A stretch of 64,000 bases of DNA from Myotis daubentonii (taxonomy: Eukaryota; Chordata; Mammalia; Chiroptera; Vespertilionidae). Positions 13,276 through 64,000 of the stretch are shown piece by piece. Where the stretch lies: assembly GCF_963259705.1 (NCBI RefSeq), contig NC_081851.1:16156145-16220144 (forward strand), read 5' to 3'. The notes beneath the pieces were generated by a model. It ran no database searches. It was not told where the DNA came from and was given only the letters and a program-made list of their open reading frames with translations. Position 1 is the first letter of the stretch. Each line of letters starts with the position of its first letter. Both the position numbers and the translations under genes were made by a program.

Positions 13276-13293
13276 TGGAGGCCCCAGCGAGAT
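13276..13293 (+). promoter_or_regulatory. Primer binding site, tRNA-Thr-like
   Basis: Two bases after the LTR, the 18-nt tggaggccccagcgagat ends the primer-site window. Its complement ends in CCA and, from memory, fits the 3' end of a tRNA-Thr (UGU) rather than tRNA-Pro. Thr primers are known in some ERV1 groups. The tRNA match is recalled, not computed. Confidence 0.65.
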
Positions 13294-13847
13294 ACCCAGC
13301 AGGCATGAGAGGGACCCCATGTTTAGGGCAGGAGGCTCTCCCCCGGCAGGGAGGAGAGGGACCCCCTATTCAAGGCAGGAGGATCTCCCCCACTTGTCGC
13401 CGGGCACTCAGCGAGATACCCCACACCTGTGGAGAATGACTACCAAGGAGGCCTCCACTCCACCCAAAACTTTCAATTCGGAAACCGAGCCACCTGGACT
13501 CTCGAGAGAGGTAAGGACCAGTCGTTAAACAGGAATTGGGACGTCCCACGGAAGGACCTATATGGAGGGCTGGACGCAGCGGTACTCCTGGTCCTGACCC
13601 GCTGCCACGACAGTGGCAGGGGTCCCTGGTTAGTGCGGCTGTAGGCTGCACTGGGTTTGTCTGTCTGGTATTTGTTTGTCTTGGTATTTATTGTCAAAAA
13701 GTTGTTTGCCTCTGTGTGCACCCTGCTACAATGTTTTTTGAAAAATTTTCAGGACTTCAAGGAGCGAGCTGCAGGTTCTGGGCAACCTTAGGTTGCATTT
13801 GGCTGATTTATTTTGTCTTTGTTCTTTGTTGTCTTTGTCTTTGTCAA

Positions 13848-15496: not shown

Positions 15497-15784
15497 GGTT
15501 GTCAGGGCTCAGCTGGCCCCCAAGAGCCCAGGATAACTCTGACAGTGGGGGGCCAAAAGGTGGACTTCCTTGTGGACACGGGAGCCACCTTCTCTGTCTT
15601 GCAACAGCCAGTGGGTACGGTCTCTAAGACCAAAATCGCCATCAAAGGGGCAACTGGAAAAGTGAAATCCTACGCATGGACTAAAGGTCGGATCAGCGAC
15701 CTAGGAAACGGCTCAGTGACTCACTCATTCCTAGTAATGCCAGAGTGCCCTTACCCTCTGCTAGGCGCCGGACTTGCTGAGTAA
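15497..15784 (+). pseudogene. pro: ERV protease (pro) segment
   Basis: In frame with gag across the TAG at 15494-15496. The retroviral aspartic protease active-site motif DTGA is at 15575-15586, in the expected hydrophobic context. The frame ends at a TAA (15782-15784), where gammaretroviruses would continue without a break into reverse transcriptase. The following RT text is in another frame, so a frameshift has separated the two. Confidence 0.88.
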
Positions 15785-19083: not shown

Positions 19084-20335
19084 CTCTCCTCATCTGCCTG
19101 CAGCCGGACTGGGAAACCCCCATTCGGCCAGAAATTAATCTTGGGAGGTCACAGGTACTATTGATGGGACTGTTATAGGCTCTGTTGTTGGAATAGGGGC
19201 GCCTGTCATCCCGACAGATCTCTGTAAACTCTTTGGAAAAAACTGGGGAAATTCCCGTAGCAAAACTGCATCCACTGGGTAAGGCTCCTGGGGCCATCCC
19301 CAGGTCACCAAAGCCAGGGGTTACGGGTGCGGAGAAATAACCCTAGAGCAAGAATTGTGGCACACTCGACATTATGTCTGCCCCTGGGAAGCGGGTAGTA
19401 ACTGTGGAGGAGAGGGTGCCTTCTATTGTGCCTCTTGGGGTTGTGAGACCCTAGCCCCATGGAAAAAACCTCCCACCGACAAGCTCCTCCGTCCGAACAG
19501 AGAGGTTCGACCTGGGGCCCCGAAGAAGAACTGCAGGATCGGAAATTGTAACCTGGTCCTCCTCATGCCTCTCGCCTGGTGGACTGACCAATGGGAAGGA
19601 GGAAAGACGTGGGGACTAAGACTCTATGTAAGCGGCCGAGACCCTGGCCAGCTCTTCACCATTCAACGCCGGACTCTTCCCCGGTGGTTCAACCCAATTG
19701 GCCCCTTGCGTCCCCTAGACAAGCCAGAGAGGCCGAGCCAGCCACAGTACCCAGCCCCAGCTAAACCTCCTGGTTCCCCTGGGGCACAAAGCTCTGGGAG
19801 CCCCAGCCCTACTCCACCTGCAGCCATGACCTCGCCAGCCCTTGGGGACCTACAACAGCTTTTAAATACAGGCGCAGGAAAACCAAACCGGAAGCTACTG
19901 GGAACCTTGGACTTAATTTTTTCTTTCCTAAATCGCACCTCCCCAAACCTGACCGCGGATTGCTGGCTGTGCTTCAACCCTGAACCCCCTTATGTTAGGA
20001 TAGGGGCAGGGGCCCAGCTCGGGAAGGACGCTTCTGCCATCAGGAACCTTTCGGCAGAAAGTCTGCCAGACGGACTGTGTATGCGGGGACACAAACACCA
20101 AGGACTTACTCTTGGGGACATCTTAAACCCCGGGACTTGTGTGTACCCTATGAACTACCCCCTTAGCAGTTCCACCTATACAGATCTATGTAATCCATCT
20201 ATCATACTTCCAAAGAATTATACAGGACAGACCCCCACCTACTTAGTAGCTCCTAAGGGGACTTGGTGGCCATGTACAACTGGTATAACCCCTTGCATCT
20301 TCTCTCCAGTCCTCCAGAATCCGATGAACCCTTGA
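19023..20335 (+). pseudogene. env: ERV env, surface (SU) part, broken
   Basis: A plausible env start (19023) overlaps the end of integrase, as in gammaretroviruses, but this frame hits a stop near 19176. An open SU segment runs 19355-20335 with several cysteines, a proline-rich hinge around 19710-19830, and the CWLC motif (19961-19972) that in this family pairs covalently with TM. There are N-glycosylation motifs such as NRT and NLT near the hinge. It ends at a premature stop before the SU/TM junction. Confidence 0.9.
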
Positions 20336-21011
20336 CTATGCATTCTAACTCATATCCTCCCACAGGTATATTACTATTCGGGAGAAGGGGGCCGAGAACA
20401 TTTAAACCTCGAACCCAGAAAAGTTAAAAGGGCCCCCATCCTAGTCCCCCTCCTTATGGGAATAGGACTAGCAGGATCCACGGCCATCGGAACAGCCGCC
20501 CTAGCAACTGGCCACCAGAATTATAAAAAATTAAATAAACAGATAGATCAAGATTTAAACTCTCTCGAAAATTCTGTTAGCCAACTGGAGGACTCCCTTG
20601 GTTCACTCGTAGAGGTAGCACTACAAAACAGACGAGGCCTAGATCTGCTTTTCCTGAAGCAGGGAGGCCTCTGTCTGGCCCTAGGGGAGTCTTGCTGTTT
20701 CTACACCAACCACTCGGGGGTGATCAGGAAAAGCCTTAGCCAGCTGCGAAAACGGCTGGCTGACCAAAAAGAGGCTAGAAAGGCTAAAGGCCATTGGTAT
20801 GAGAATTCATTTTCCTGGTCCCGCCGGCTAACCACCCTGCTCTCCTCCTTGGCAGGACCAGTCGTTCTGCTCCTCTGAGGGCTCATCTTTGGCCCCTGCA
20901 TTGCCAGATGCCTCCTCAATTTCATACAAAATCAAATACAGGCTGTAAAGTTAATGGTTTTATACACCCAATACTCCAGAATCTTACAGGAGGACGCTGA
21001 AGCAAAGATTT
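20336..21011 (+). pseudogene. env: ERV env, transmembrane (TM) part, truncated
   Basis: A basic furin-like cleavage motif (RKVKR) is encoded at 20417-20431, followed by a hydrophobic stretch, a heptad region and the gamma-type CX6CC motif (20672-20698) within the usual conserved TM segment. The frame stops inside the membrane anchor (TGA 20876-20878). Remnant cytoplasmic-tail text follows to a stop near 21011. This product would lack its tail and has no intact SU in the same frame. Confidence 0.9.
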
Positions 21012-21036
21012 GATTCCCAATAAAACCAGTAGGGAA

Positions 21037-21408
21037 TGTACTGGGCTGCATATCCGGGCGCGCTGTACTATCTGCTCCTGGAACAGACAGATAGGAATGT
21101 ACTGACATCAGGTCAGGTCTTGAGATATGGTCTCATGGTCCCTCCTCAATATACTGTGCTCTCTGTTCCCAGAGAACATAAATAGGAAGGTGATAATGCT
21201 ATACTGTATCGGAAACAAATTGCATAAACAAGGCTTTGTAACTTTGTAGTTTTTGCAAATAAATAGGCTGTAACGCTTGCAGTCATTGCTGCAGTTCAGC
21301 CTTTGCTTTGGCGGAGTGCTGGGACTGCAGACAGCTGGCCAGCTTAATAAAGCTTCCTAAATTTAAATTCTGAGTCTGTGGTCTATCTCGCTAAGTCAAC
21401 CCATAACA
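21037..21408 (+). repeat. 3' LTR of the ERV1 provirus
   Basis: 372 bp, the same length as the 5' LTR, TGTACTGGG to ATAACA, with AATAAA at 21346-21351. The short purine-rich 'agtagggaa' before it stands where the polypurine tract should be. About 25 substitutions and no indels separate it from the 5' LTR by hand count. Confidence 0.93.
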
Positions 21409-23255: not shown

Positions 23256-24225
23256 CTCTGGTTGTGAAGGACACAGAAAAGGGTGTCACTCCCAGAGGAC
23301 TGCCAGGACGGAAGTTATGTTATGAGGCAGGTGCCAGTGACACAGCCCCCAACTCTGAGGGCCCCAGCCAAGTGGTGGGGCCATCTGAGCAAGTCACTGC
23401 GGTGTGGCGCTGACAGAGGTCGAGGGCACAACCCCTTGTCTCCTGAGGGACATCTCCATCGCGTGCCCGCCACCACTTTGAGCCCAGCACCATGGCACAG
23501 ATGTCCTTCATTGCACATTATTAGAAGATAACCCCTCCCTCAGTCCTCTGTCCTGGTGTTTCTCACACGGAGCAATGACTTACAGTTTGAAACTATGAAT
23601 ACAAGATTTTGTTAAAGAGCAGATCTTTCTTTCACCTTTGTACCACAGTCAGCCATTTCTCTAGCCTTCTGAAATCCAGTAGTTGTTCCGGCCAAAGACC
23701 AAAGTGCCCGACGGTGGGACGTTGGTCACCCCCAAGTGCACCTACTATGTGCTAGGCAGCATGAGAAAGTACACAGAGAAAGTGAAATGTTACCCTTTTC
23801 CTGGAGACATTACCAGAATGGGGGTGGTATTTTTGATGCTCAGGTGCCTTTATCTTTTCATTGCTGTGTATGTGACCAACCCTGACCATCCACAGGCACC
23901 CATCTCATGGCAAGGAAGGGGGTGGTTTTCTTACCTGGGCAAGAGGAATGTGTGTGGTTAGGATTCTGAGAGCAGAAAAGAAGGAAACACATTTGGAATT
24001 CAGCTTTTGAGTGCTAACACAGAATTAACAAGACAGTATTTTGAAAGTCATACCTTATTAAGATGTGAAGTAGACATTCCCTAAGTGCCAGTTACCATAG
24101 GAGAAGCCAGACCCACCTGACTTGAAGTGAGAGCCTAGCTCTGCATTCACTGCCATCAGGGGACCAGGCTTCTGAGAGTGGACACACTGTGGCCGCGTTT
24201 CCGGGGCTGCGGCCCTCCGGCCAGC
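23256..24225. other. No recognised gene
   Basis: Mixed-composition sequence between two minisatellites. No recognised repeat or exon. Confidence 0.4.
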
Positions 24226-24234
24226 AGGGGGCGT

Positions 24235-24680
24235 TACCCCGGCCCTCCCTGCTCCCTGCTCTCCCCAGGAAGTCCCGCCCCTCCCTGATCCCTGCTCTCT
24301 CCAGGAAGCTCCGCCCCTCCCTGCTGCCTGCTCTCCCCAGGAAGCTCCGCCCCTCCCTGCTGCATGCTCTCCCCAGGAAGCTCCGCCCCTCCCTGCTGAC
24401 TGCTCTCCCCAGGAAGTCCCGCCCCTCCCTGATCCCTGCTTTCCCCAGGAAGCTCCGCCCCTCCCTGCTGCCTGCTCTCCCCAGGAAGTCCCGCCTCTCC
24501 CTGATCCCTGCTCTCCCAGGAAGCTCCGCCCCTCCCTGCTGCCTGCTCTCCCCAGGAAGCTCCGCCCCTCCCTGCTGACTGCTCTCCCCAGGAAGTCCCG
24601 CCCCTCCCTGATCCCTGCTCTCCCCAGGATGCTCCGCCCCTCCCTGCTGCCTGCTCTCCTCAGGAAGTCCCGCCCCTGCT
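24235..24680. repeat. 36-bp GC-box minisatellite
   Basis: About 12 tandem copies of a unit of the form gaagctccgcccctccctgc followed by tgcctgctctccccag. Variants alternate 'gaagctccgcccc' with 'gaagtcccgcccc'. Each copy holds a CCGCCCC box (Sp1/KLF-like) and a GGAA core. Since 36 is divisible by three, both strands have long repetitive ORFs, which I do not regard as genes. Confidence 0.92.
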
Positions 24681-24699
24681 GGAAGTTGGAGTTCCTGTC

Positions 24700-26495
24700 T
24701 CTGGAAGATGGTGGCTTTCCAGTGCTCATGGCCTCAGGCAGGCATGGGCTGGAGCACAGAGGGCAGCGGGCGGGGCCCTGGAGCAGCTAAGCCCTTGGTG
24801 AGGAGTCTGTGCTGGGGCCTCAGAAGCCAGCCCCGCGGGGGAGCAGCGCCCATTGCAGGTGGTCCGTTCCTTCCCCAGAAGGTGGCCAGGGCCAGGCAGG
24901 GCAGGGCAGGCCGGGCTTGGTCCTCCCAGCTGAGCCCCCGCTCTGTGGGCACCAGCTGCGTAGGGAGCCGCCTTCTAAGGTCGGGATTCCCTCCCTCCTC
25001 ACCTCGCCAGGCCCGCTGCTCCCTGCAGGGTGTAAAGGAGCCAGGGCCTTCCTCCAGCCCGTGTGGATCCAGAGTTTCCCAGCCCCGCCCCCCCCCCTTG
25101 TCAGACTGGGACCCCCCCACAGCCACACGGTTCTGACCAGGACAGGATGGCAGGGAGATGCGGGGACAGCCATGGGCCTGACCACCTAGCAGGTCAGTCC
25201 ACTGACGGGAACACGGGAGGTGATGGCCACTCCTCACTTCACCTTCACTCGTGGCGTGAAGGGCACCAGCAATGACGGTTCCAGGGAAGCCATTGCGGCG
25301 CCTCAGCCCAGGGCAGCCCCTGAAGCCTGTGCCCAGCGAGGAGCTCTCCCGACGCTGCGCCCATGGAACTCCAGTTCTGTGGGGCCAGGAAGGGCCTCCC
25401 GGGATGAGAGGGGCACGAAGCCCTTGGCGCCAGTCACTGAGTGGCCCTTGAGTCACTTAAAAATAAAACCAGGTCTCTGCTGATTTGTGTTAAAATCCCA
25501 TCGAATGAATGTATGTGCTTAAATAACTTCACTAACATAAACGGCATTGCTATTTTTAAATGTTATATTAAGTTATATTTATTTTGAAGACATCAAATGA
25601 ATTTAAAATTTGATAAAATTTGATATAATAAAATAATACCATTCCTGTGTTCAAAACGTCCAACCTGAGTGGCTTTTATGCATGATTTTTTCTTGATATC
25701 TAAAGAATTCTAATTTCTCTTTTTTAAGTTATATTTGAACATAATATAGTGGCACTTAAGGTTTATCTTTAGTGAAGGGACTCAAATGGGGAGTTTACTG
25801 GTTACATTTATTTATTAACTAAAGAATATTCCAAGTCTATAGGAGCTGGACTCTGTGAAGTCATTGTACCATCCTGCCCATCAGTGCCTTTCTCTGGGGT
25901 CTTCTAACATTTAGTGTTTGCATTTTGTCAGTGACACATGTATATACTGTTGAGCTCACCTGCACCCACACTTTAACTAGCCCCCACTAATCTGCTCTCC
26001 CCCCATTTTCTTTTTCCAGCTTTTGTTCCCCAACGTTTAAACCTTCCCATCAAGTGTCTGAGTGGCTGGTCACACCTGCTAATTGTCCAGCACAGCTGTG
26101 TTCCTCCAGGTCTGGGTCTCACTTCCTTACTGGACCGTTGACATCCATCCAAGTCATCCTACTTCTACCTCCTCCTCCTCCAGTCTCAGCCTGCAATTCA
26201 GAATGAGTGCTGTTAGATATGCATTGTTGTGCAGCGTTACAGACAGAGATGCGTTTGAACACTTCTAACAGTGCTATTTTGCCAGGGGACCAGATGGCTG
26301 CTGGCCAAAGCACACCACCTTGTAGGAGACGAGGGGGTGTACTTACAGGGGAGATTTGAGAGCTGTGGCAGATTGCTCTGTGCTTCATTCACCAGTCCAT
26401 GCTGTTGTGCATCAATACTGTACACTCAGACTGGTTTGCAAAGATTATGCCCTGTGGTAGTGTACATCCTATCATATGTATACCTATGTGTTAAT
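24700..26495. other. No recognised gene; GC-rich then AT-rich
   Basis: GC-rich to about 25470, with many overlapping ORFs on both strands typical of GC-rich non-coding DNA, then AT-rich. No domain or paired splice sites could be supported. Confidence 0.4.
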
Positions 26496-26829: not shown

Positions 26830-28985
26830 GAGTAACTTGCCAGCATGATTGTCAAGTGTGTGCTTGCAAGGTTCATTGTTCCTGTGCTGGGCCCTCCCCA
26901 GTCACAAAGCTGACTGGCAACCATATCTGAGTTTCCATCAGTGTGGCTCTCACTGTTTTCTCCACCCTGGTTATTCCCTGAGACCTCACCCCATCCAATT
27001 TGCAGCCCTACCCAAGCTGTTTGTAGCCAATTTTCCATATGAGTGGCCTATCCTGGCTCAGGCTTCAGACTTTGCTAGAATCTCAAACAAGCAACAGCTG
27101 GCATCGAACCTATCAATAAAAGGCCGAAGACTCTGTACTAGCACCAGCCTGTTTTGCTTTACAGCTGGGTCTTGCCTGGGCACTTCCTAGCCCAAAACAA
27201 ATAGCAGCCATCTGCAGATCCCTCTGTAGCTCCTGCTAGGTGGCCCCAGGCAGTGGCTGACTTTGCACCTCCTGGAGGCCCCAAAGCCAATGAATCTGGT
27301 GGACAGCTTCATATCATAACAGATTACAGCTCTGCACATCCACAAGCAACACACTCAAGGAGCTGACTCAGTGAGCACCAAAGCCCCACTGAAACAAGTC
27401 CTGTTCCATATGGGTGTCTCCTGCACAGAAGCTCTTCCATTTGGGATGCAGCTGGTCCTCACAGCCCATCAGCCTGGAAATCAATTCCTCCCAGTGATGC
27501 CAACAGCAGTCAATTCTCAACTACAACAAGACTGTGCACACAGCCCACACAGGAGCACACACAGAGTGCCCTGCTCAGGTGACTGGGGAGTCTGAACCGT
27601 GACTAGGCCCTACAGGAAACCTAATATACAAGTTCTCTCTACCAATTCCAGGAGACATAGTAGTTCTACCTAATACATAGAAACAAATACAGATACAGGG
27701 AAGCTGCCAAAATACAGAGACAATGAAACATGTCACAAATGAAAGAAATGGAAGTAAGCAAACTCCTGGAGACAGTGTTCAAAACAATGGTTCTAAGGTC
27801 ACTCAAGGATCTTAATGAGAGGTTCAAGGGACTTAATGAGAGCTTCAAGGGAATTAATGAGAGATTCAAGGGACTTATTAAGATGTTCAAGGATCTTGGT
27901 GAGACTGCCAAAGACATAAAAATAGGACCAGTGAGAAATTAAGCATATACTAACTGAAATAAAGAATAATTTACAAGAATTCAACAGTAGAGTAGAGGAT
28001 TCTGAGAATCAAATAAATGATTTGGAACATGAGGAAGCAAAAGGCACCTAATAAGAAGAACAAAAGGGAAAAGAATAAAAAGGTATGGAGATAATGTAAG
28101 GAGCCTCTGGGACAACTTCCAGTGTACCAACATTCCCATTATGGGGGTTCTAGAAGGAGAAGAAAGAGAGAGCAAGATCTTGAAAAATTATTTGAATAAA
28201 TAATGACAGAAAACTTCCCCCACATGGTAAAAGAAATCGTCTTACAAGTTCAGGAAACACAGTAAGTCCCAAACAAGATGAATCCAAAGAGGTCCACATC
28301 ATAATTAAAGTGGCAACTGTTAAAGAAAAACAGAGGGTTTTAAAAGCAGCAAGAGAAAAGCAATTAGTTACCTACAAGGGAGCACTCATATGACTGTCAG
28401 CTGATTTCTCAACAGAAACTTTGCAGGCCAGAAGGGAGTGGCAAGAAATAATGAAAGAGATGAATAGCAAGAACCTATAACCAAGATTACTCTACCCAGC
28501 AAAGCTATCATTTAAAATTGAACATCAGATAAACAGCTTCACAGACAAGAAGAAGCTAAAGGTATTCATCCCCACCAAGCCAGTATTACATGAAATGTTG
28601 AAGGGTATTCTTAAAGAAGAAGAGGCAGAAGAAAAAAGAAAAAATATGAACAACAAAATGGCAATAAATACATATCTATCAGCAACTGAATTTAAAAATC
28701 AAAATAAATGAACAAGAAATCTTACGAACAAAATAAACTGATGAATAAAATAGAATCAGAAGCATGAAAACAGAACAGACTGACAAATCTCAGAGGAAAG
28801 GAGTGAGAGGGGTATGGGAAGATATTCAGGAAAAATCTTATATGCATATATGCATTACCTAAGGACACAGACAATAGGGTGGTGAAGGTCTGGCGTGGGG
28901 TGGGATCTGGGTGGATGGGGGCCCTGGAGAGCAAAGGGGGGCATCTGTAATGCTCTCAGCAATAAAGATTTTCCTAAAAAAAAAA
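26830..28985 (+). mobile_element. HAL1/L1 element with 5' UTR and ORF1, no ORF2
   Basis: From about 26830 the text matches a mammalian L1 5' UTR as I remember it ('ccctggttattccctgagacc', 'aagctgtttgtagccaatttt'). ORF1 begins near 27736 (a readable part runs to 27942 in a lysine-rich coiled-coil frame) and continues broken to about 28660. The 3' end (cagcaataaagattttcc plus poly(A), to about 28985) follows without ORF2, the layout of HAL1 (half-L1). An internally deleted L1 is the alternative. Confidence 0.65.
27805..27909 (+). repeat. 21-bp tandem repeat in LINE ORF1 coiled coil
   Basis: Five 21-bp units of the form aagggacttaatgagagcttc start at 27805, 27826, 27847, 27868 and 27889, encoding seven-residue repeats (such as FKGLNES). 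Each unit is one heptad, so copy number can change without disturbing the coiled coil. Confidence 0.85.
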
Positions 28986-33290: not shown

Positions 33291-33363
33291 AGAGCTGGTG
33301 GGCTCAGAGACGGTGGGCCCAGAGCCTGTGTGCATAGCGATGGACGGTGGACACAGCCTCAGG

Positions 33364-33423
33364 ATGGACGTTACTGTACGAGAGCTCATGGAGCTCTTTC
33401 TGCAGAGCACGCTGGTGGCGGGG
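33364..33423 (+). CDS. CCDC88C-like exon 1 (start codon)
   Basis: The ATG at 33364 starts MDVTVRELMELFLQST..., very close to the first residues of Daple as I remember them, where they begin the HOOK domain. The exon encodes 20 residues and ends at donor GTGAGT (33424) in phase 0. An in-frame ATG at 33340 exists upstream, but the Daple match favours 33364. Where Daple continues into HOOK, nothing matching is found before the next exon. Confidence 0.75.
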
Positions 33424-34439: not shown

Positions 34440-34580
34440 GTGACCCGCCACCAGGAGACCCTGTTTAACTTGCAGAGGTTGGAGGCCCCAGACATGGCCC
34501 TGGAGGAGCTGGAGTTTCTCTCCAGCAACATGACCTGTCGCCTCAGGAGGCTCTTAATTGAGCAAGACAGTTACAGGGAG
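34440..34580 (+). CDS. CCDC88C-like exon 2 (end of HOOK region)
   Basis: Acceptor gccctcag, donor GTGTGT, 141 nt, phase 0 to 0, 47 residues. It begins VTRHQETLFNLQRLE, matching the Daple segment that closes the HOOK region (VTHNQENVFDLQ-type), and ends in a basic RLRRLL helix. The roughly 140 residues that separate this from exon 1 in Daple are absent between 33424 and 34439, yet the splice 1-to-2 stays in frame. Confidence 0.85.
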
Positions 34581-35022: not shown

Positions 35023-35141
35023 CTGGTCGTGACCCTGACCCAGGAGTGGAACACCAGCAGCCGCCCCAGCGAGGACACGCAGCCCCTGGCCGTGGAGCTG
35101 GCGGACACCAAGGCCACGCTGCGCGGCGTCAGGCAGGAGCT
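35023..35141 (+). CDS. CCDC88C-like exon 3
   Basis: Acceptor cctgctgtag, donor GTGAGT, 119 nt, ending in phase 2 inside a leucine codon. It encodes LTQEW..., a short polar linker (SSRPSEDTQ, shorter than in Daple), and AVELADTKATLRGVRQE, which is almost the Daple/Girdin sequence opening the coiled coil. It has no ATG, so ordinary ORF calling misses it. Confidence 0.88.
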
Positions 35142-35838: not shown

Positions 35839-35920
35839 GGAGGAGAAGACGAAGCAGCTGGCGGACGCCAGGCATCAGTTGTACCAGCTGGTGCTGGAGC
35901 TGCAGGAGGCCCGGCGCAAT
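35839..35920 (+). CDS. CCDC88C-like exon 4
   Basis: Acceptor cgcccgcag, donor GTGAGC, 82 nt. Its first base completes the leucine codon from exon 3. It encodes EEKTKQLADARHQLYQLVLE followed by LQEARRN, the Daple coiled-coil continuation. Ends in phase 0. Confidence 0.88.
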
Positions 35921-36233
35921 GTGAGCAGGAGGCCTATCCTGTGGGCCGGGGGTGAGGGGCTGGGACGCCCCAGTCACCGGGGCCCCAGGTCCAGGAACGT
36001 GACCTGGGACACCTCTCCCTCCTGCTCAAAGCAGCGCTGCCTGAGAGCCAGCTGTCCTGGGAGCTTCTGGGGGGTGACATGGTGCAGTGACAGCATGTGG
36101 GGCCCCCACACAGGGGCCTGCACATGGACCAGCTTGGCCGACCCTGGCTTCTCCTGGGGCTGCAGGGACTTGGGCCTTTCCCCAGCCCCGAGGGTGCTCT
36201 GAGCCAGGTCCCCTGCCTTTGCCCACCTCCCAG

Positions 36234-36390
36234 AACATGGAGTTGGCAGCCAGCGCCCAGGCTGCTCCTGCCCCCTCCCTGAGCTGGACTCCCTGAGGGA
36301 GAAGGTGAGGCGCGTGGAGAGGCTGGAGATGGAGGCGATGGGCCTCAGGCAGAAGGAGAAAGACATAGACTTCTATGCAGCCGCATGGAA
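36234..36390 (+). pseudogene. CCDC88C-like exon 5, frameshifted
   Basis: Acceptor cacctcccag, weak donor GTGACC, 157 nt where Daple suggests 159. The start (NMELAAS) fits Daple. One base is then lost between about 36255 and 36280, giving a stop (TGA 36294-36296) in the incoming frame, while the shifted frame reads ELDSLREKVRRVERLE and KDIDFY, clearly Daple-like. A second base is lost near 36382. The ancestral exon was phase 0 to 0, so skipping it keeps the frame of exons 4 and 6. Confidence 0.75.
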
Positions 36391-37564: not shown

Positions 37565-38255
37565 TCCTATTTAATAAGAGCCTAATATGCAAATTGTCCC
37601 CTTGGATGGGAGTTCCACAGGGAGGCCAGGAGTCCGACTGCTTGCTATGACATGCGCTGACCACCGGGGGACGGCGTGGAACATTGCTGGCATTGGCAAT
37701 GCGCTGCGACCTCTTGCTGGCTAACCTGGAGCGGGGGTGACAGGGATGGAGGTGCTGTAAGAATGCAAGCTCGTTCTCACTCCCCCTGCAACCCTCCCCC
37801 GGGACGCCAGGGCTCGCCCGCCAGGGAAGCCCCTGAGCTCAGGTGCTGGGTGCCCAGGAGGAGCCCACCCTGCACCCGCACAACCTCTTTAAGGTGAGCC
37901 AGGCCACAGCAGCTGGGACCACAGGGGCCTGTGGGGCTCCTGGTGGGTTCGAGCAGGAGCTGGTCTGCAAGGCCGGCCAGGAGAGAGCGTGCTGCCCGCC
38001 GTGCTTCTGGGGGACACCACTGGGTGGACCAGAGGCCTACACTGCTCTCCGGCCCACAGTGTCTGGCCTTGCTCACCACATCTCCGTATGGAGACTTGGG
38101 CACCATGACTCAGGTATGGGGGGGAGGGGGGTGCATAGAGGCCAGGGGCCCAGAGGTCAGCTGTGACCTGCCCTTCCACACCAGGCGCTCACACTTCGAT
38201 CTCCGGCCAGGCCTAGGGACCAACCCAGCAGGAATTTCATGCACCAGGCCTCTAG
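37565..38255 (+). mobile_element. HeliBat-type Helitron F with exon-like cassettes
   Basis: The 5' end TCCTATTTAATAAGAGCCTAATATGC starts at 37565. The 3' end 'atttcatgcaccaggcctctag' finishes at 38255, followed by T. Inside, an open segment ends at 37893 before GTGAGC, and 38060-38113 is preceded by a CACAG acceptor and followed by GTATGG. Both look like host exons with splice sites, as expected if the Helitron captured gene fragments. I do not recognise the source gene. Confidence 0.85.
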
Positions 38256-41464: not shown

Positions 41465-41605
41465 GTGCCGACTGGAGACGATTATTTTTCCATGGACACT
41501 GAGAGCCATCTCCAGGACCATTGGATTTGGTATTGGATTGATAAGCTATTCGAGCGGGAGGAGGAGAATGTGCAGCTGAAATCGAGGCTGCACCACCTCC
41601 AATTG
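41465..41605 (+). CDS. CCDC88C-like exon 6
   Basis: Acceptor ttgctgaccag, donor GTAGGA, 141 nt, phase 0 to 0, 47 residues. The second half, DKLFEREEENVQLKSRLHHL, matches the Daple segment with ENLQLKSKLHDL. The first half (GDDYFSMDTESHLQDH) aligns more weakly with REDN...ETKAMLEEQ. A tryptophan-rich patch (WIWYWI) replaces the alanine/arginine stretch, unusual in a coiled coil. Confidence 0.8.
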
Positions 41606-42249: not shown

Positions 42250-42376
42250 GCCCGGGACACAGACCAGAAATGCCTTGAGGAGCTGCAGGAAGAGATCATG
42301 GCCCTCAAGACTGCACAAGGGCAGAGTGTGGAGGAGTCCGCCCACCTGCACTGGGAGCTGGAGCAGCTGTCAGAGG
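42250..42376 (+). CDS. CCDC88C-like exon 7
   Basis: Acceptor ctgcactag, donor GTAAGC, 127 nt, ending in phase 1. It encodes [20 protein letters not shown] and, further on, [13 protein letters not shown], close to Daple's SAHLGWELEQLSK. A short Daple segment expected after it was not found. The junction with exon 8 remains in frame (g + cc makes alanine). Confidence 0.88.
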
Positions 42377-44686: not shown

Positions 44687-44832
44687 CCTCCAGCTGCTTC
44701 CTGAAGCTGGACAAGGAGAAGCAGAGCCTCCAGGACACCATCCAGGGGCTGCGCGACGCCTCCCTGGCCATGCAGGAGACCAGCCTCCAGCGCCGGGAGC
44801 TGGAGGAGGAGAACCAGCAGTTCAGAAAGCAG
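44687..44832 (+). CDS. CCDC88C-like exon 8
   Basis: Acceptor tgctcttcag, donor GTACCC, 146 nt. The first two bases complete an alanine codon with exon 7. It encodes [20 protein letters not shown] and [11 protein letters not shown], nearly the Daple text, then a charged helix ending EENQQFRKQ. The correct frame has no ATG upstream, so it is hidden in simple ORF scans. Confidence 0.9.
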
Positions 44833-49517: not shown

Positions 49518-49655
49518 ATTGAAGACTGGCAAGTCCAGATGGAAAGAGAAAAGCAGACCAGCCGGGATCTGGCGACTCTCTGTGAGGAGCTGGTGGAGGA
49601 GAGAGAACAGCTGCTCCGTGACATTGAGACCCTGAAGGCTGAGGAAGCCCAGGAG
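49518..49655 (+). CDS. CCDC88C-like exon 9
   Basis: Acceptor tggctccgcag, donor GTAGGC, 138 nt, phase 0 to 0, 46 residues, the same length as the Daple counterpart. It encodes IEDWQVQMEREKQTSRDLAT, then LCEELVEEREQLLRDIETLK, tracking the Daple coiled coil residue for residue with conservative changes. Confidence 0.92.
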
Positions 49656-50395: not shown

Positions 50396-50613
50396 GCTCA
50401 TGTTTCCTCTGGTCCCGCTGCTTCACAGTGAAGAGTAGTAAATCCAACTTCACCCTCAGCGATGTGGAGTTGGTGTGGCTGGAGACTGAGGGGCAGGAGG
50501 GTCCCCCAGGGGAGAAGGGTGTGCCCACTAATCCCGGCTCAGGGAAACCAGGTGTCAGCATTGGGGTCCCAGCTCCTGGGGAATTCCTACCCCCTCTTCC
50601 TTTCCTCTCCAAA
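50396..50613. repeat. Duplicated intronic block B, copy 1
   Basis: 218 bp, from 'gctcatgtttcctctggtcc' to 'cctttcctctccaaa', repeated at 52674-52891 with only about three differences (50457, 50540 and 50581 by eye). An ORF through it is open in both copies, but I find no matching splice phase, so I treat it as non-coding. Confidence 0.9.
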
Positions 50614-51412
50614 GAAGTGGGCAGGAAGAATGTGGAGTGTGAAGAGACAGAGGGAAGGCCTCCCGGGATCCTCTGTGGACATCTCATTGGCCACACCTGA
50701 CACATGACTAACCCTAACTGCAAGGGAGGCTGGGTATCAGGTACTTGAGTTCTTCAGCCTCTCTAGTATTGCAGAAAAGGGGCTTGGGGAGGTGCTGTGT
50801 AGACTTAAGAGGCATGCATCTACCCTCCCCCAATATGGCTTCCAGTCTAGGAGGTGGAACGACAGGTGACTTGAGACGTGTGCTATTGAGGGAATATACG
50901 TGGGTCCAGGGAGAGTCTTATTAGGTGGAGGACATTTAGAATCACGGTGCAGGGCTTCCCTGAGTAGCTGTCAATCACACTGAGCCCTGGAGGATGAGAA
51001 GGAGCCAGTGATGCTGGAGGCCGCGGGTGGAGGCAGGTGAGCATTCACAGCAGAGGGAAGATCATGTGCAATGTCTGCAGGGGAGAGTGGCGTGAGGGGC
51101 AGCCACAGAGGTGGGCGGTCAGCTCTCGAGCCACTGTGAACCAGGGTAAAAAGCACCAAGGAAATCACTTTCATTGTTTTAAGAGAAGATGTGGTTTTTG
51201 TTTCTAAGTCATTTGGCTTCTGTGAAAGTGTTTAGACTGGAACTGTCTGGGTGGGGATCTCCGTGCCTTCACCTTCTGTCCATATCAGGCCTTTGGGAAA
51301 CGTTAAGACGTCCTTTGGGTCCATGATTAAATGGGCATTCCAGGCCTACACTTTAGGTCTCAAATTTGGACCGAAATCACGCCAGTGTCATTTCCATTGT
51401 GTTTTCCTGCAG
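50614..51412. other. 3' part of intron 9
   Basis: No recognised repeat or exon. It ends in a good acceptor (gttttcctgcag) before exon 10. Confidence 0.5.
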
Positions 51413-51874
51413 TTCAAGGATCTTAAACAACTGGTGCGTTCACTGCGGGATAGTTCACAGACCAGCAGCAAGGCCCGCATGAAGGGCCAGAAGACTGAGA
51501 AAAAAGTGCTCCTCCAGACGGTGACGGACACCAAAAGGAAAGTGACCATGATGGAGTGGGAGCGGCGGCAGCTGTGCCGGGACCTGGAGCAGGTGAAGGC
51601 GCAGGCGGCGCAGGCACAGGAGCTGGAGCACAGGAAGGTGCGGGTGAAGGAGCACGTGGTGCGGACACAGAAGCTGGAGCAGGAGCTGCATCGCCTGCAG
51701 GAGGAGATCGAGAAGCTAGCCATGGAGGTCAGCGCCCTGACGACGGCCCCTCAGAAGGTCCACGCCCTCGAGTGGGAGAGCCCGGAACTGTTGCTGGAGA
51801 ACCAGAGGCTGCAGACGTCTCTGGACACCCTGCAGCCCGAGGGCCTGGAGCAGGACAAGCAGCTGGACACCAGG
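51413..51874 (+). CDS. CCDC88C-like exon 10
   Basis: Acceptor gttttcctgcag, donor GTAATT, 462 nt, phase 0 to 0, 154 residues. It starts FKDLKQLVRSLRDSSQTSSK, continues with WERRQLCRDLEQVK, ELHRLQEEIEKLA and ENQRLQTSLDTLQ, all in Daple order. In Daple this block continues for several hundred residues of coiled coil. Here it stops at the donor, and the next exon resumes far downstream in the Daple order, still in frame. Confidence 0.93.
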
Positions 51875-52365: not shown

Positions 52366-52607
52366 GTGGAAAATTCCACTCTGAGCTCCCAGAGCGCCTC
52401 GCTCACTGCGCTCACAGAGCAGAACACGCAGCTCCAGCACCAGCAGCTGGCGGCAGCCCACAAGGCCCTGCAGCAGGAACACGCGTGCCTGGGCGCGCTC
52501 CACGAGCGCCTGACTAGGGAGCACGAGGCCCTTCTGGACAAGTACCACCGCCAGAAGACACTGCTGAGTCGGACCCTGAAGCTGGAGAGCAAGGCTCTCA
52601 GTGACAG
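52366..52607 (+). CDS. CCDC88C-like exon 11
   Basis: 242 nt, donor GTGGGT, ending in phase 2. It encodes VENSTLSSQSASLTALTEQN and later CLGALHERLTREHEALLDKY, matching Daple's VENSTLSSQSAALTAQ and LGTLHERQSAEYEAL regions, about a dozen residues shorter in between. The acceptor is a NAGNAG (agcag at 52361-52365), so a glutamine may be added by choosing the upstream AG. Confidence 0.92.
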
Positions 52608-55483
52608 GTGGGTGCCTGTGGCTGGGGGTGACGGACAGGCTCCCCGGGCTCCTGTCCCCCCTTCACTCTGGCCGCTCATGTTTCCTCTGGTCCCGCTGCT
52701 TCACAGTGAAGAGTAGTAAATCCACCTTCACCCTCAGCGATGTGGAGTTGGTGTGGCTGGAGACTGAGGGGCAGGAGGGTCCCCCAGGGGAGAAGGGTGT
52801 GCCCACTAATCCTGGCTCAGGGAAACCAGGTGTCAGCATTGGGGTCCCAGCTCCTGGGGGATTCCTACCCCCTCTTCCTTTCCTCTCCAAACCAAGGACC
52901 AGGAGGAGAAGTCACCACAGCTGCCAATTTTCAGGGGCGTGCCTTATCTAGCTCCCCAGGCCTTTTCCCTGTCCAAGTCTCAAAGTCTGCACTTCTGATT
53001 TTCTTTTTTTACTTTTAATTTTGGAAAGTTTTGAATATATGGACGTGTACAGACTAGTATAGTGAAAACCCCGTGTTCCCCTCACCTGCAGCAGCATTAT
53101 CAGTACTCTGCCATTCTCATGTCACCTTTACCTCTGACTCTCCATATACCTTTTTAAGGTAAAATTGATGTACCTTAAATGCATAAATCTTAACTTTGCA
53201 CTTTTTCAAAATCAGGGCTTTGTGTGCATGTTGTCAGCCAACTTCGTCTGAGCTCCTGCCAGGCAGATCCCTGATTGCAATGGCCCCAGCAGGTGCACCG
53301 GGACCCAGAGCCTGGGGGAAGTGAGATGTACAGAGGACTCCAATGTGGTGGGGAGAGAGAGTGGGAGAGATGCGCTAAAGAGAGGCTCTCCCACACTTGG
53401 AGCAGCCCAGGAGGGAGCTGTCCACTTCCTGTGCTTGTGAGTTGTCCCTGCTGAGTTCTTCCCAGGCCTCTGCCTCAGCAAGATGCTAGGCAAAGGCTGG
53501 GGCTCCCTGGGAGCAGCTGAGGTGCAGGGATTTGGCATCACAGGGACCAGGAGGGCACTGAGCCTGCAGAGCCTGCGGAGGGCGCCTGCTGCTGCATGAA
53601 CTTGGGGGAGATGACATACATTTACACACTCACCCAGTGCTTCCTGTGGACTCTCCCCAGAGCCTTCCACCCCTTTCTCCACCCAGATGCCCATCCTTCG
53701 GGGGTGCCGAGATGTCTGCTCCTATCAGACTCTCGTTTCTTCCAGCCAGAATGAGCATCTTCTGCCTCTTGGCATCTCCATCTCTGCCTCCTCCGCACCC
53801 ATCCTGTGTTCACGAGATGCTTAGTAAGCACCCACTGGGCGCCTGGTGCTGTCTAACATGGTTTGAATGCACCCAGCTGACTACTGATGGGAGCCTCCTG
53901 TGGTGCCCACCCCTCACCAGGTGCTGCGGGCCCTCCCCTCAATGATAACCATGTGTATATATTCTTATGGCTGTTAACATGGGAAGGTTTGTACAGGTGG
54001 CATTTGACTGGTCTGAGGGAGGAGTTCATTGCTCTGCCTATGACTCCTTGCTTGGTGGACCTACTGTGTGATTCAGTGGTTTTTGCTGGTTGGACAGATA
54101 GCTGGAGGCCCTTGGTGTGTCTGCAGCAGGGCTGCAGGTTAGAGGTGGAGGTGCCTGGAACACAGGCCGGGGGCTCTGTATTCATTTCACCTGACACTTG
54201 ACTGAGACACTCGCTCCTTCCTTCCCCTGGTGCACATGCACTGGGTGTCAAGCCTCGTACCCGGGATTCAGTGGGGAGAAGCACTCGCAGTTTCTGCCCT
54301 GCAGGAGGGTGGTTACTGATGGTTGCGATATGCTTGATCCTGTGCTTTTCCAAGACACAACAGGGAAGCAGGAGGTGGGGACCCTAATGGTCCATAGCCC
54401 TGTTTGTCAAACCTGGATGAGAAAGATCGCTGCCCTGAAAGCCCAGCAGAGCCATCACCCCCACCTTCCATTTCCCATGTCTGGGCAGCCTCCACTTGTG
54501 GCTAAAGGCCACAGGAAGGAATGTTTGTCTTCCAACAGCCGACCAAGCAGGTGTGTGTGTGTCTGAGTCCGCACAAGTCTTGGCTCCAGGCAGATGGTAC
54601 AAGTACAGCTGATATGGGGTGGGCTTGGATGGAGGGCTGCAGGCAGGGGCTGAAACCCTGGAACTTGGGTGGACTCTGTCAGCCTGTATCTGGGTGTGGA
54701 CACCTCAGGAAGGGGGTCTGGAAAGGGTTTTGCCTGCCTGGGGAAGATTGAATGGTGATGACTCAGTCTCCACCTAGGACCTGGGGAGGCCCCTGAGTCA
54801 CCTGAACAGGGAAGGTTCCTGCAGGAGGAGGAACAGCCTGGGGCTGGTCAGGGGCTCCCTCTTGTGCTCTGCTGCCCTCCGGAGAGGCTGTGTGGGACCC
54901 TCTGCAGACTGAGACAGGAAGGAAATAAAAGCCCGAGCTGAGGGGGAGGCTGTGGGAGAGCAAGGGCAAGAGCTGGACTGGGGGTGCCTTGAGGAGCCAT
55001 GAGGGTGTGCAGTTGCCCATGATGGCTGCTTGGGCCCCACCAGGCAAGACTCTGGCCCCCAAGCTGCCTGGATCAGAGCAAGAAGAGTCGTGCTCCTGAG
55101 CTGGGGCGGAGGGCTCACCCAGGGCCCATTGAGGGGGATCAGCTGTTATGGGCGGTGGAATTCTGCTGTGTTTGCAGTGGTTTCTTTGAGAAGGGCGTGG
55201 AGTTCATAAAACAGTGGTTTTGTTCCCAGTGGGATGAAGGAGGGAGGCTGCTTTGACAGGGACTGGAAGGGACCATGGAGACACGTCGGGTGGGAGGAGG
55301 GAGGACTTGCCTCCTGTGCTGGAGGAGACCCCCGGAGGTGGCCCAGTGACTGTCCCCTCTCTCTGTCCAGCCCTGTCCCACGCGGATCCCCCTCTCCCTC
55401 AGCTCTGCAGAGAGAAGCCGCTCACCCAGGCTTTGAGGTCTCCCTGGGTTTCCATTCCTAGCGGGTGTGTTTCCCTTCAACAG
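52608..55483. other. Intron 11
   Basis: About 2.9 kb, starting with the second copy of duplicated block B. Otherwise GC-rich with no supported exon. Confidence 0.55.
52674..52891. repeat. Duplicated intronic block B, copy 2
   Basis: 218 bp nearly identical to 50396-50613, located 66 bp after exon 11. High identity implies a recent copy or conversion within the gene. Confidence 0.9.
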
Positions 55484-55627
55484 ATACAAGGACCAGCTCC
55501 AACATAAGGCGGCGCTGGAGCAGCTGGGGACGCTCTTGACCACCGAGCGGGAGGCTCTGCAGCAGGAGCAGAGGACGAGCACCATGGCCGCCGAGGAGAA
55601 CCAGAGGCTGCAGCGAGAGCTGGACAG
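55484..55627 (+). CDS. CCDC88C-like exon 12
   Basis: Acceptor cccttcaacag, donor GTAACC, 144 nt. The first base completes an arginine codon from exon 11 and the last two begin another. It encodes [20 protein letters not shown] and [10 protein letters not shown], almost the Daple text ([24 protein letters not shown]). Confidence 0.93.
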
Positions 55628-57130: not shown

Positions 57131-58268
57131 CTAGGGGCCCGGTGCACGAAATTCGTGCACTGGGTGTGTGTGTGGGGGGGAGTGTCCCTCAGCCCAGCCT
57201 TCCCCCTCTCACATACTGGGAGCCCTCAGGCGTTGACCCCCATCACCCCAATCGCAGGATTGGCCCCTTGCCCAGGCCTGACGCCTCTGACAGAGGCGTC
57301 AGGCCTGGGCAGGGGACCCTCATTTCCCCCCATCACTGGTTCTGCCCCCAGCCCAGGCCTGATGCCTCTGGCCCAGGCATCAGGCCTGGGCAGGGGACCC
57401 CCAGGCCCCTCCGATTTCTGGCTCTGCCCCTTGCCCAGGCCTGATGCCTCAGCCAGAGGCGTAGACCCCCATCACCCTCTGATCACCTGATGGGCCCCTT
57501 GCCCAGGCCTGACGCCTCCACCAGAGGTGTCAGGCTTGGACAGGGGACCCCCATCTCCCCCCGATCACTGGCTCTGTCCCCTGCCCAGGCCTGAGGCCTC
57601 TGGCCCAGGAATCATGCCTGGGCAGGGGACCCCCATCTCCCTCTGATCGCTTGCTCTAGCCCCCACCCAAGCCTGACGCCTCTGACCCAGGCTTCAGGCC
57701 TGGGCAAGGGGACCATCATATCCCCCCAATCCCTGGCTCAGCCCCCCGCCCAGGCCTGATGCCTCAGCCAGAGGAGTTGACCCTCATCACCCTCCAATCA
57801 CCAATCACCGGATCGGCCCCTTGACCAGGCCTGAGGCGTCCGGCTCGGGCAGCGGGGACCCGCAGCTGCAGCAGCCCCGCGATCGTGGGCTCCGGTTTAG
57901 GCCCAGGCAAGGGACCCGTAGCTCCCGGGACTGCCAGCTTCGACCGTGCCCAGCTCCCATCGCTGGCTCCACCCCTACTTCCTGCTATCACTGGCCAGGG
58001 CGGCAAAGGCGCCTGATTCTCCGCCTTTGCCCTGCCCCCCAGCTCTTAGCTCCCCGCTGGGTTTCCGATCACTGTCAGTGGCAGGGGGCTTCTTCCTGCT
58101 TTCCCTTTCGCCTCCCTGCATTGTGCCTACATATGCAAATTAACCTCCATCTTGTTGGCAGTTAACTGCCAATCTTAGTTGGCAGTTAATTTGCATATAG
58201 CCCTGATTAGCCAATGAAAAGGGTATCGTCGTACGCCAATTACCATTTTTCTCTTTTATTAGTTTAGA
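57131..58268 (-). mobile_element. HeliBat-type Helitron G
   Basis: Reverse orientation: CTAG at 57131, the perfect hairpin 'gtgcacgaaattcgtgcac', and at the other end 'ctcttttattagtttaga', the complement of a Helitron 5' TC end (58267-58268). The 5' subterminal text 'ttaatttgcatatagccctgattagccaatg' is shared with Helitron B. The interior is a palindromic minisatellite. No Rep/helicase ORF. Confidence 0.88.
57255..57790. repeat. Palindromic minisatellite inside Helitron G
   Basis: About seven units of roughly 70-85 bp, each with 'gcccaggcctgacgcctctg' or a variant, followed in many units by its inverted copy and 'caggggacccccatc'. The unit at 57271-57309 is a perfect inverted repeat with 19-bp arms and a one-base centre. 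Confidence 0.85.
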
Positions 58269-58972: not shown

Positions 58973-60566
58973 GGCCAATTCCCTGCACCAGCAGCTGAAA
59001 GGGGAGCAGGAGGAGCTGCAGACCCACACTAAGAAGCTGCAGACCTCCCTGAACGACACCCAGCTGCAGGTGAACCGCTGGCAGGCCCAGTGCAACTGCC
59101 TGAGGAAGGAGCAGGAAGAGCTGCTCACAGACAACAAGGAGCTGCAAACCTCCCTTCATGAAAGGCAGCTGGAGGTAAACCACTGGCAGGCCCGGTACGA
59201 TGGGCTGAAGGGGGAGCAAGAGGAGATGCACACACTCACCAAGGAGCTGCAGACCCACGCCAGTGAGCTGCAAACCTCCCTTCATGAAAGGGAGCTGGAG
59301 GTAAACCACTGGCAGGCCCGGTACAATGGGCTGAAGGGGGAGCAAGAGGAGATGCACACACTCACCAAGGAGCTGCAGACCCACGCCAGTGAGCTGCAAA
59401 CCTCCCTTCATGAAAGGGAGCTGGAGGTAAACCACTGGCAGGCCCAGTACAATGGGCTAAAGGGGGAGCAAGAGGAGATGCACACACTCACCAAGGAGCT
59501 GCAGACCCACGCCAGTGAGCTGCAAACCTCCCTTCATGAAAGGGAGCTGGAGGTAAACCACTGGCAGGCCCAGTACGAGAGGCTCAAGGGGGAGCAAGAG
59601 GAGATGCACACACTCACCAAGGAGCTGCAGACCCACGCCAGTGAGCTGCAAACCTCCCTTCATGAAAGGGAGCTGGAGGTAAACCACTGGCAGGCCCGGT
59701 ACTATGGGCTGAAGGGGGAGCAAGAGGAGATGCACACACTCACCAAGGAGCTGCAGACCCACGCCAGTGAGCTGCAAACCTCCCTTCATGAAAGGGAGCT
59801 GGAGGTAAACCACTGGCAGGCCCGGTACGATGGGCTGAAGGGGGAGCAAGAGGAGATGCACACACTCACCAAGGAGCTGCAGACCCACGCCAGTGAGCTG
59901 CAAACCTCCCTTCATGAAAGGGAGCTGGAGGTAAACCACTGGCAGGCCCGGTACGATGGGCTGAAGGCGGAGCTAGAGGAGATGTATGCTCTCAACAAGG
60001 AGCTGCAGGCTGACGCCAATGAGCTGCTCACAGAATACAAGGAGCTGCTCACAGACAACAAGGAGCTGCAACTGTCCCTGAATGACACGCAGCGGGAAGT
60101 GAACAGCTGGCAGGCCCGGTACGAGGAGCTGAAGGGGCAGCAGGAGGAGCTGCAGACTCACAGCAAGAAGCTGCAAACCTCCCTGGACAACACGCAGCTG
60201 GAGGTGAACCACTGGCAGGCCCAGTACGAGGGGCTGAAGGCAGAGCAAGAGGAGCTGTACGCCCTCAACAAGGAGCTGTACACCCTCACCAAGGTGCTGT
60301 ATGCCCTCACCAAGGAGCTGCTCACAGACAACAAGGAGCTGCAACTGTCCCTGCATGACACGCAGCAGGAAGTGAACAGCTGGCAGGGCCAGTATGAGGA
60401 GCTGAAGGGGGAGCAGGATGAGCTGCTCACAGACAACAAGAAGCTGCGAACCTCCCTGAACGACACGCAGCTGCAGGTGAACTGCTGGCAGAACCAGTGC
60501 AACTGGCTGAGGGAGGAGCTTCAGAGCACGGACATCTTGCTGACCGAGCTGGACAACCGCTGCCAG
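58973..60566 (+). CDS. CCDC88C-like exon 13, expanded coiled-coil repeat
   Basis: Acceptor ctctacccctag, donor GTGAGG, 1594 nt, 531 codons without a stop. The first base completes an arginine codon from exon 12. It starts ANSLHQQL and ends [19 protein letters not shown], both close to the flanks of a single 35-residue Daple segment ([20 protein letters not shown] onward). Here the segment is repeated 12 times (58998-60509) with unit lengths 35, 35, six of 42, 56, 35, 56, 35 residues, all multiples of seven. Each unit has KGEQEE, a KELQTSL-type core and a (N/S)xWQ motif. The result would be a coiled coil about 470 residues longer than in Daple, lying before the C-terminal part. Confidence 0.93.
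58998..60509 (+). repeat. 12-unit heptad-multiple tandem array in exon 13
   Basis: The 504 codons divide into 12 units. Units 3-8 (59208-59963) are six 126-bp copies that differ at only a few positions, mainly around the codons after WQA (RYNG, QYNG, QYER, RYYG, RYDG). Outer units are more diverged, with one- or three-heptad insertions. Near-identity of the middle units points to recent unequal exchange or conversion. Copy number could vary between individuals, and assembly collapse or expansion is possible. Confidence 0.95.
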
Positions 60567-62201: not shown

Positions 62202-62341
62202 CTGGTCTCCCGCCTCAAGGGCAACTTGGAGGGAGAAAACCGTCACCTGCAGAGCCAAATCCAAAGGCTGAAAGAGCAGAACCAGAGGCTTTTCCAGGAG
62301 GACGTGGAGGACAAGGACCAGCACCAGGAGGAGCAGCAGCA
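62202..62341 (+). CDS. CCDC88C-like exon 14 (last recognised)
   Basis: Acceptor tgtgttttag, donor GTATGT, 140 nt, ending in phase 2. It encodes [20 protein letters not shown], then [10 protein letters not shown] and HQEEQQQ. Position-by-position comparison with remembered Daple gives about 28 identities in 46. If the donor is not used, the frame ends three codons later (TGA 62349-62351). The next Daple exon, ending the coiled coil, is not found in the remaining 1.6 kb. Confidence 0.92.
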
Positions 62342-64000
62342 GTATGTGTGAGGGGTGTGGGCTGACGGACGCCTGTCAACAGAGGGGCCGTGGCTTCCAG
62401 CTCCACGACTAGACCGCACCATTCTGGGCAGCAGAGAACCCCTGGGTGCACTGGTGTCCCAGGCAAGGGGACGGACCATCCTACCAGCACATCCTTCTCT
62501 CGTTTTCCCGGGAATGGTTCTAGATTTCTGCACATACGGGCGGTTTGCTTTGTTGGCTTTTCAGAGACACTGCCCCCTGACAGATGCTTCTTAATCTTCT
62601 TTTGGGATCAAGTTCACTTTGAAAAATACAACAGTGATGAAGAGAGGCTCCTAGGGAAGGACTTCAGATCACAGGCTGAGTCCTTTCTGCGTCGGTTTTT
62701 CTCTTAATGGGCTGCAGAGTGGGTTGTTGGTGCACAGTGGCTGTCCTCCCTCTGCGGACATTGTGTTTGACAACAGGCCTGGCCCTGCAAAGTGCACAGA
62801 ACCAGTTACCTGGTCTCCATGAACCAGTAGGAGTGATGGGATGTGAGCAGAGCTATGTGCACACAGACGTTGAGGAGCACCATGGAGGTAGAAGGAAGCA
62901 TAGTGGTAGGAGTTGGGGTTCTGCTGCTGACATGGATGTGGAGAAGGCTGGCCAGTGTGTGTGTGGGGGGATAGGGGCAAGAAGGTGGGGCAAGAAGGAA
63001 GGCTGGGGGAGGCAGTGCTCAGCTGTGGAAGGCTTCCATGCCTGGCTAATGAGTCGGATTCACTGGGAAGTGGGTGATTAAGGGATGCTGGTGTACAGGG
63101 CCTAGGAAGCTGCCAGAAATGAGGGCAGGAGGAAGAGCCTTGGTGCTGGAAACCTTGTGGTTTGGAAGTCAAGTCATCTGAGATGCATCTTGTGGGTCCA
63201 GGGTGGTCTTCACCCCTCGGGGCTGTGCTGCTGGGACTGTCCTTCCTTGCGATCGGGAATGGCTGGCCAGTGTGGGACAGAGGGACATGGCCACAGTGGC
63301 CACTGGGGCACTGTCCCAGCTCCCCAGGGTGACGATTCTGCTCACTGTTCTCCCAGATTCGTCTGCTCATCTACAGGGGGCTCAACACCTACCAAGGATG
63401 GTTGACATGGAAAACCTCACTGTACTTTTGGGGTAGAAGTGAGAGTTTGTACCCTGAAGTGGGCTCTCTATAACGCAGCTGCTAAAAATTACCAGCAGAG
63501 CTTGGGCAGGTGCAAACTAGAAGAGTAGGGACCTGGTACCCTGGGGGATGATCTGGTGATGGGTTTGCATTAGAAAGTGTCTGTAGGAGGTCAGAGAGTG
63601 GGCAGGCTTCCTGAGCCTGCTCCAAGCGGAGTCTTCCCCAGCCCTGGGATAGCTAGGCCATGAGTTTGTGGGGCTAGGGGACGGCTGTGGGAACAGAATA
63701 ACACAGACTAGAAGAACAGAGTCCGAAATGAGGGCGCTGGGAGCAGAGCAGGTTCGTGGCCAGGGACCCAGTGGTTTGCAAGCGATCACTTCTCGCGGGT
63801 GCTCACTTTGCGGTGAACTCGCGGGAAAGCCCTTGGATTAGGGGGCCTGGGCACCTTCTTGACTGAAGGAGCCTGAGCAGCTGCCTGGATGCCGAGGACT
63901 CATTTTCAAGCAGGGAAAGCTGGGGTCTGAGATGTCAAGGCCACATGGGTGAGGAGAGGCAGGAACTGGACAGGCGCCGGCGGCCCAGTGGGGGGCGCTG
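62342..64000. other. Downstream intron or 3' flank, no exon recognised
   Basis: No match to the Daple segments after exon 14 (DKLNALRR, KIMDQYKFYDP or the lysine-rich tail) is visible on either strand. The rest of the gene may lie past base 64000 or be missing. Confidence 0.5.

Follow-up and report, generated by a model that had tools for sequence, protein, structure and literature searches.

Gene model and tandem array

The window, a stretch of 64,000 nucleotides from the bat Myotis daubentonii (C13:16156145-16220144), carries on its forward strand a Daple-like coding model (33340-62347), the exons of which were located by tblastn with Daple-like proteins and then checked for splice sites. 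It comprises 14 exons with 3620 coding bases and no stop. The first exon, with the ATG start, lies at 33340..33423 and is followed by those at 34440..34580, 35023..35141, 35839..35920, 38060..38113, 41465..41605, 42250..42376, 44687..44832, 49518..49655, 51413..51874 (exon 11, through the paralogues of which the family was located), 52366..52607, 55484..55627 (exon 13), 58973..60566 (the array exon) and 62202..62347 (exon 15, the last within the window). A further counterpart of a Daple exon, with approximate ends at 36210..36390 (+), is out of frame here and therefore has to be skipped in the model; it is likewise skipped in the M. daubentonii protein models P0020 and P0021. Two more exon matches past the window putatively continue the protein.

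The array exon (58973-60566, +; exon 14 if the out-of-frame one is included) is flanked by an AG acceptor and a GT donor and is open over 531 codons, with 29, 20, 2, 10 and 17 stops in the other five frames. Its central 504 codons (58995-60506) consist of 12 tandem coiled-coil units, each containing one tryptophan. Units 1 and 2 (58995..59204) are 35 residues long, units 3-8 (59205..59960) have 42 residues or 126 bp each and a mean identity of 98.0%, and the more diverged units 9-12 (59961..60506) have 56, 35, 56 and 35 residues. Only five nucleotide columns vary among the six 42-residue units, of which units 7 and 8 are identical, and Tandem Repeats Finder described 59139-60027 as a repeat of period 126 with 7.1 copies, 96% matches and a score of 1631. 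The original prediction had thus read the unit number and lengths, the open frame, the near-identity of the six 126-bp units and the regularly placed tryptophan correctly from the DNA; it had also found the array, but placed it one codon late, at 58998-60509.

Several other repeats and elements were observed in the window. The intron preceding the array exon contains a minisatellite of 81-82 bp (57263-57765), and a piece at 50396-50629 is duplicated at 52674-52907 with 96% identity; P0002 and P0037 match it, and so take part of it as coding. A retrovirus-like element at 12902-21336 (+) has 300-bp direct repeats, 93% alike and ∼8.1 kb apart, and separate ORFs that match Gag_MA, reverse transcriptase, RNase H, the MLV integrase C-terminal domain and TLV_coat. 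In addition, a tandem repeat of 36 bp with 12 registered copies lies at 24192-24749, and 27345-27420 (-) matches Rfam mir-9229 at 76.2 bits (gathering score, 71).

A Daple-like family and its paralogues

The gene in the window resembles Daple (CCDC88C) in the order and sequence of its coiled-coil exons, and the units of the array are homologous to the single 35-residue unit that the Daple exon of this genome encodes. A long coiled-coil region of CCDC88 type was recognised by exon-by-exon matches to Daple P0045, by the heptad test and by a helical model. According to the published account (PMC4484057), proteins of the CCDC88 family have a HOOK domain at the N terminus, and CCDC88C carries a GBA motif near the C terminus, around F1675. 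No HOOK-domain match was found between the first exon and that at 34440..34580: residues 23-157 of P0032, which hold HOOK_N (37-156), had a best window match of only E = 1.6, whereas residues 1-22 and 158-210 of the same protein do match the window. Residues ∼720-1124 of P0045 likewise gave no significant match in the window. The sequence TLEEFLE of the Gi-binding GBA motif occurs in eight of the 44 records P0001-P0044, all of them from M. lucifugus, the window gene itself being followed only to the exon match KKHWIGAK. A GCV end, which in Daple binds PDZ domains, is present in none of these 44 records as against 52 of the 79 records P0045-P0123, many of the models being incomplete.

Daple also differs in its locus, since the true Daple unit exon of this genome lies at C1:8467039-8467224, and in having one unit as opposed to 5-14. 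In a tree of 30 proteins chosen from 199 plus the window, several of them incomplete, nine Daple proteins are united in a clade (100/100) that excludes the window, and the window groups with M. daubentonii models (100/99), P0017 being 97% identical over 646 columns. The position of the Cnephaeus protein, which has a long branch, is unsure. The window gene clusters with the Myotis Daple-like models and shares their exon layout; it is not the orthologue at the single CCDC88C locus. Judged by its sequence, it is a member of a multi-copy Daple-like family distinct from CCDC88C, belonging to a set of at least 21 close paralogues, and its earlier identification as Daple itself was not borne out. The statement that Daple has the segment once did hold: among the 79 listed records P0045-P0123, 70 match the unit pattern once, nine have no match and none has more than one, and the Daple exon of this genome encodes a single unit.

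Related records come from at least M. lucifugus, M. daubentonii, M. yumanensis, M. brandtii and M. myotis, together with one from another vespertilionid, Cnephaeus nilssonii; this range rests on protein searches, two of which gave the best 120 matches each. Many of the records are named "protein Daple-like" (NCBI), and some CCDC88B or CCDC88C (Ensembl). The Myotis "protein Daple-like" models belong to the same gene family as the window gene; the M. daubentonii models examined differ from it in lacking units that are present in the DNA, and the arrays of M. lucifugus and M. yumanensis differ in being built of other units (NEMQLEKN, ELLTDNEE). The family is named in databases, and no published account of it was found in the literature searches made. 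The rodent Speer/alpha-takusan family, which derives from Dlg5, is comparable in that it is also multi-copy, lineage-specific and descended from the coiled-coil portion of a gene for polarity or scaffolding. The parent gene and the lineage are different, however, and we know of no internal arrays of the Daple-like kind in it. Pfam gave TACC_C and SopA_C above the cut-offs and others below, all of which were attributed to chance similarity with a repetitive coiled coil. Two weak matches to the array, up to E = 1, were obtained among solved structures; fold search was set aside as a guide to function, since a long helix matches anything.

A search of the assembly (2.128 Gb) revealed at least 21 close copies of exon 11, the window included: at least 15 on C13 (11.7-21.1 Mb), two on C20 and single copies on C10, C11, C14 and C58. 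The copies on C10, C11, C14 and C20 sit 1.1-2.2 Mb from the contig starts. A second subfamily (class B) is represented by at least eight further exon 11 copies on C13, with 69-72% identity. The array exon was read in the 21 close (class A) copies, 20 of them fetched in addition to the window. Counted by their tryptophans, the units number 7-14 in 19 copies; the C20 pair, both with stops, have 5 and 6, and some units there no longer show the pattern. The lengths of the class A exons (272-594 residues) take 13 distinct values in 14 length patterns, and all 21 arrays are distinct, although every one of them begins with the same first unit type. The exon is free of stops in 20 copies (L028 has one), has the AG acceptor in 20 (L009 has GG) and the GT donor in all. 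The class B exon contains two units in 97 residues (six loci read of eight), and the Daple unit exon one unit in 62 residues. Every exon read, whether class A, class B or Daple, leaves a remainder of 6 modulo 7, and the lengths of all 21 class A exons are equal modulo 21 bp, in keeping with the earlier proposal that the coiled-coil register is preserved throughout.

Further unit-like matches were observed on C13 near 13.24, 13.70, 13.94, 14.99, 15.95, 16.53, 20.26 and 20.69 Mb. They contain some TAG stops, lie mostly ∼40 kb from class B copies and look like a decayed subfamily. Matches at C6:39.98 Mb and C19:32.86 Mb, the latter with five TGA codons, run over exon borders and look like retrocopies.

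Heptad core, variable tail and turnover

With the first leucine of the unit placed at d, 61% of the a positions and 82% of the d positions are hydrophobic. Of the 158 hydrophobic residues, 106 lie at a or d, which was reached in 0 of 20000 shuffles (best register). AlphaFold2, run on the single sequence, gave helix at residues 2-157, 162-267 and 277-530; in view of the mean pLDDT of 67 and the pTM of 0.21, only the helix is informative. Both results speak for the coiled coil expected of the array. Comparison of seven diverged units over 28 shared codons showed 0.076 nonsynonymous differences per site at a/d against 0.221 elsewhere, with synonymous values of 0.287 and 0.254, respectively. When eight codons were drawn at random, 376 of 20000 draws showed constraint as extreme. 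Values close to that of the true register were obtained for two others (0.086 and 0.103), both of which have one position class in common with it, and the remaining four range from 0.142 to 0.355. The comparison of dN/dS between units that had been suggested thus revealed a constrained a/d core in the old units, and an overall unit pN/pS of 0.69 (0.39-1.29).

Among young paralogues, pN/pS was 0.50 (0.20-1.40) for exons 13 and 15, the two C20 copies being excluded, and 0.69 (0.21-3.06) for exon 11 in nine of the 21 copies. Divergence between paralogues is 1.9% and 2.4% in exons 13 and 15 as compared with 1.1% and 1.8% in the flanking introns; since the exons are not slower than introns between recent paralogues, present selection is unproven. 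Meanwhile, the stretch downstream of the array exon shows no indels among the 21 copies, and hence missing frameshifts in the exons say little. What these comparisons support is constraint on the heptad core in the past, not at present.

Variation among the 42-residue units is concentrated at their ends. In 51 of the 55 such units, four hybrid units being left out, the last four codons have a pN of 0.242 and a pS of 0.215, as opposed to 0.0076 and 0.050 in the other 38 codons, and seven of the eight common variants fall in this tail or the adjoining codon. The same pattern is seen in unit 2 of 20 paralogues (0.191/0.175 in the tail versus 0.004/0.005 in the rest) and is missing from the first, last and 56-residue units, the last of these having a pN of 0.054 in the tail and 0.097 in the rest. 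Tail types (RYDG, RYNG, QYER, QCEG, QYKR and others) recur between units and paralogues in varying order. In the window array, the five variable columns lie within 14 bp, and 650 of 1000000 random draws were as tight; they are linked changes, hence fewer than five events. Diversifying selection was rejected as a conclusion from dN/dS alone, for the raised tail pS argues against a simple selection reading. Old tails amid homogenised units could mark the ends of conversion tracts or could be kept by selection.

The speed of turnover was estimated from a tree of the flanks (1243 columns, made up of the introns on both sides plus ∼60 bp of exonic sequence next to each). The closest relative of the window in it is the copy at C13:14.69 (96/91), with summed end branches of ∼0.16%; the window has 12 units against nine in this paralogue. 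Such a difference at so low a flank divergence indicates fast turnover and agrees with the recent exchange originally proposed, although conversion of the flanks could make the copies seem younger. End branches do not exceed 0.17% in the copies on C10, C11, C14 and C58, which contain 7, 10, 8 and 9 units, respectively. A neutral rate of 2-3 per billion years per site would date the split between the window and C13:14.69 to a few hundred thousand years; with so recent a split, allelic variation in unit number at this locus is likely.

Proposed expansion of a coiled-coil rod and its alternatives

The expansion is real, recent and heptad-locked, and it took place in a Daple-derived multigene family, not in Daple. 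It probably reflects a young Daple-like family of mouse-eared bats, the members of which would encode a coiled-coil rod of a length that varies by paralogue. The family would go back to an incomplete Daple copy that lacked the HOOK exons and the central block and that multiplied on one chromosome as well as close to the ends of others, and the single five-heptad unit of the Daple exon would have grown to 5-14 units. We infer unequal exchange and conversion as the mechanism by which unit number changes, the number, lengths and paralogues themselves being observed. Because the units are whole heptads, gains and losses would keep one continuous helix. At a coiled-coil rise of ∼0.15 nm per residue, the 272-594 residues would form a rod of roughly 40-90 nm, which may act as a spacer or as a repeated docking face. 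In favour of such a rod family are the series of one unit in Daple, two in class B and 5-14 in class A, the exon lengths with one remainder modulo 21 bp in 21 of 21 copies, the stop-free frame in 20 of 21, the distinctness of all arrays, the hydrophobic excess and conservation at a/d, the helical model and the stop-free 14-exon gene model. Against it, exons 13 and 15 diverge as fast as introns, the pN/pS intervals include 1, one exon of the window is out of frame, stops occur in the C20 copies and the further loci, L009 does not have AG and the M. daubentonii models examined drop units.

Some of these points also fit a neutral growth of minisatellites in dying or functionless duplicates, where heptad lengths persist as exchange copies whole 105-, 126- and 168-bp units; kept register could indeed result from the mere copying of whole units. 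This explanation, which we consider possible but doubtful, accounts for exons that are not slower than introns, for both pN/pS values of the young paralogues, for the out-of-frame exon and for the stops in the C20 copies and the further C13 unit-like loci. It does not sit well, however, with arrays that are free of stops in nearly all class A copies, with AG/GT sites and open frames in the window's other 14 coding exons, with a/d positions that change less in old units, or with the M. lucifugus and M. yumanensis Daple-like models of more than 1,200 residues (P0018, P0023), which include arrays. The latter come from other assemblies and, together with the 21 distinct arrays sharing their first unit type and the shortness of a 1.5-kb array relative to modern long reads, make it most improbable that the unit number is an assembly artefact of expanded or collapsed repeats, even though units 7 and 8 are identical.

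Database models could also be taken literally, the array being mostly spliced out so that the mature mRNA keeps one or few units. Models P0017, P0020, P0021, P0032 and P0037 have one-unit spacing (53 residues) against at least five units in class A and two in the class B loci read, and the array of P0002 equals that of the C58 locus (L025, nine open units) minus 180 residues, unit 1 being joined to a late unit at donor- and acceptor-like sites. Donor-like GAG|GTAAAC, GAG|GTGAAC or CAG|GTGAAC is found in 10 of the 12 window units, with an acceptor-like TGGCAG just after. These donors, however, match 6-7 of 9 consensus bases as compared with 8 of 9 in the exon's own donor, the acceptor-like sites do not have a pyrimidine tract, and in-frame removal is equally easy for an annotation program that bridges repeats, which is how we think the M. 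daubentonii models examined skip units. Removal by splicing therefore appears improbable. Since these models hide most class A arrays, surveys of protein models would miss them.

The tail alphabet invites a comparison with PRDM9, the zinc-finger exon of which is a tandem array with concerted evolution, likewise showing recent change in unit number, near-identical units and variation at few positions. PRDM9, however, encodes DNA-binding fingers and not a coiled coil, and in the Daple-like tail nonsynonymous and synonymous differences are both raised. It is unlikely, in our estimation, that the arrays are combinatorial barcodes in which an old and diverse tail alphabet after the tryptophan is shuffled among units and paralogues and selected for diversity as in PRDM9. 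If they were, both the length of the rod and the succession of surface patches along it would be particular to each paralogue, which could serve pairing or partner choice among family members.

With 1, 2 and 5-14 homologous units per exon, one genome offers a natural length series of a coiled-coil rod, on which selection for rod length may be told from mere drift and the turnover of tandem arrays in coding exons may be studied. A study in mice (PMC8511111) reports that Daple is required for hair-bundle order and for hearing, above all at high frequencies. This role makes it of interest where bats, which echolocate, might express a family amplified from Daple.

In the other Daple-like protein models, 95 of the 110 unit steps are multiples of seven. 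As 15 steps are off-heptad, ten of them leaving a remainder of 5, lengths alone were not accepted as proof of selection for heptads. A common five-residue slip, LHNEEL, breaks the heptad rule in P0003, P0004 and P0023 from M. yumanensis and in P0022 from M. lucifugus, and the remaining off-heptad steps may be faults of the models.
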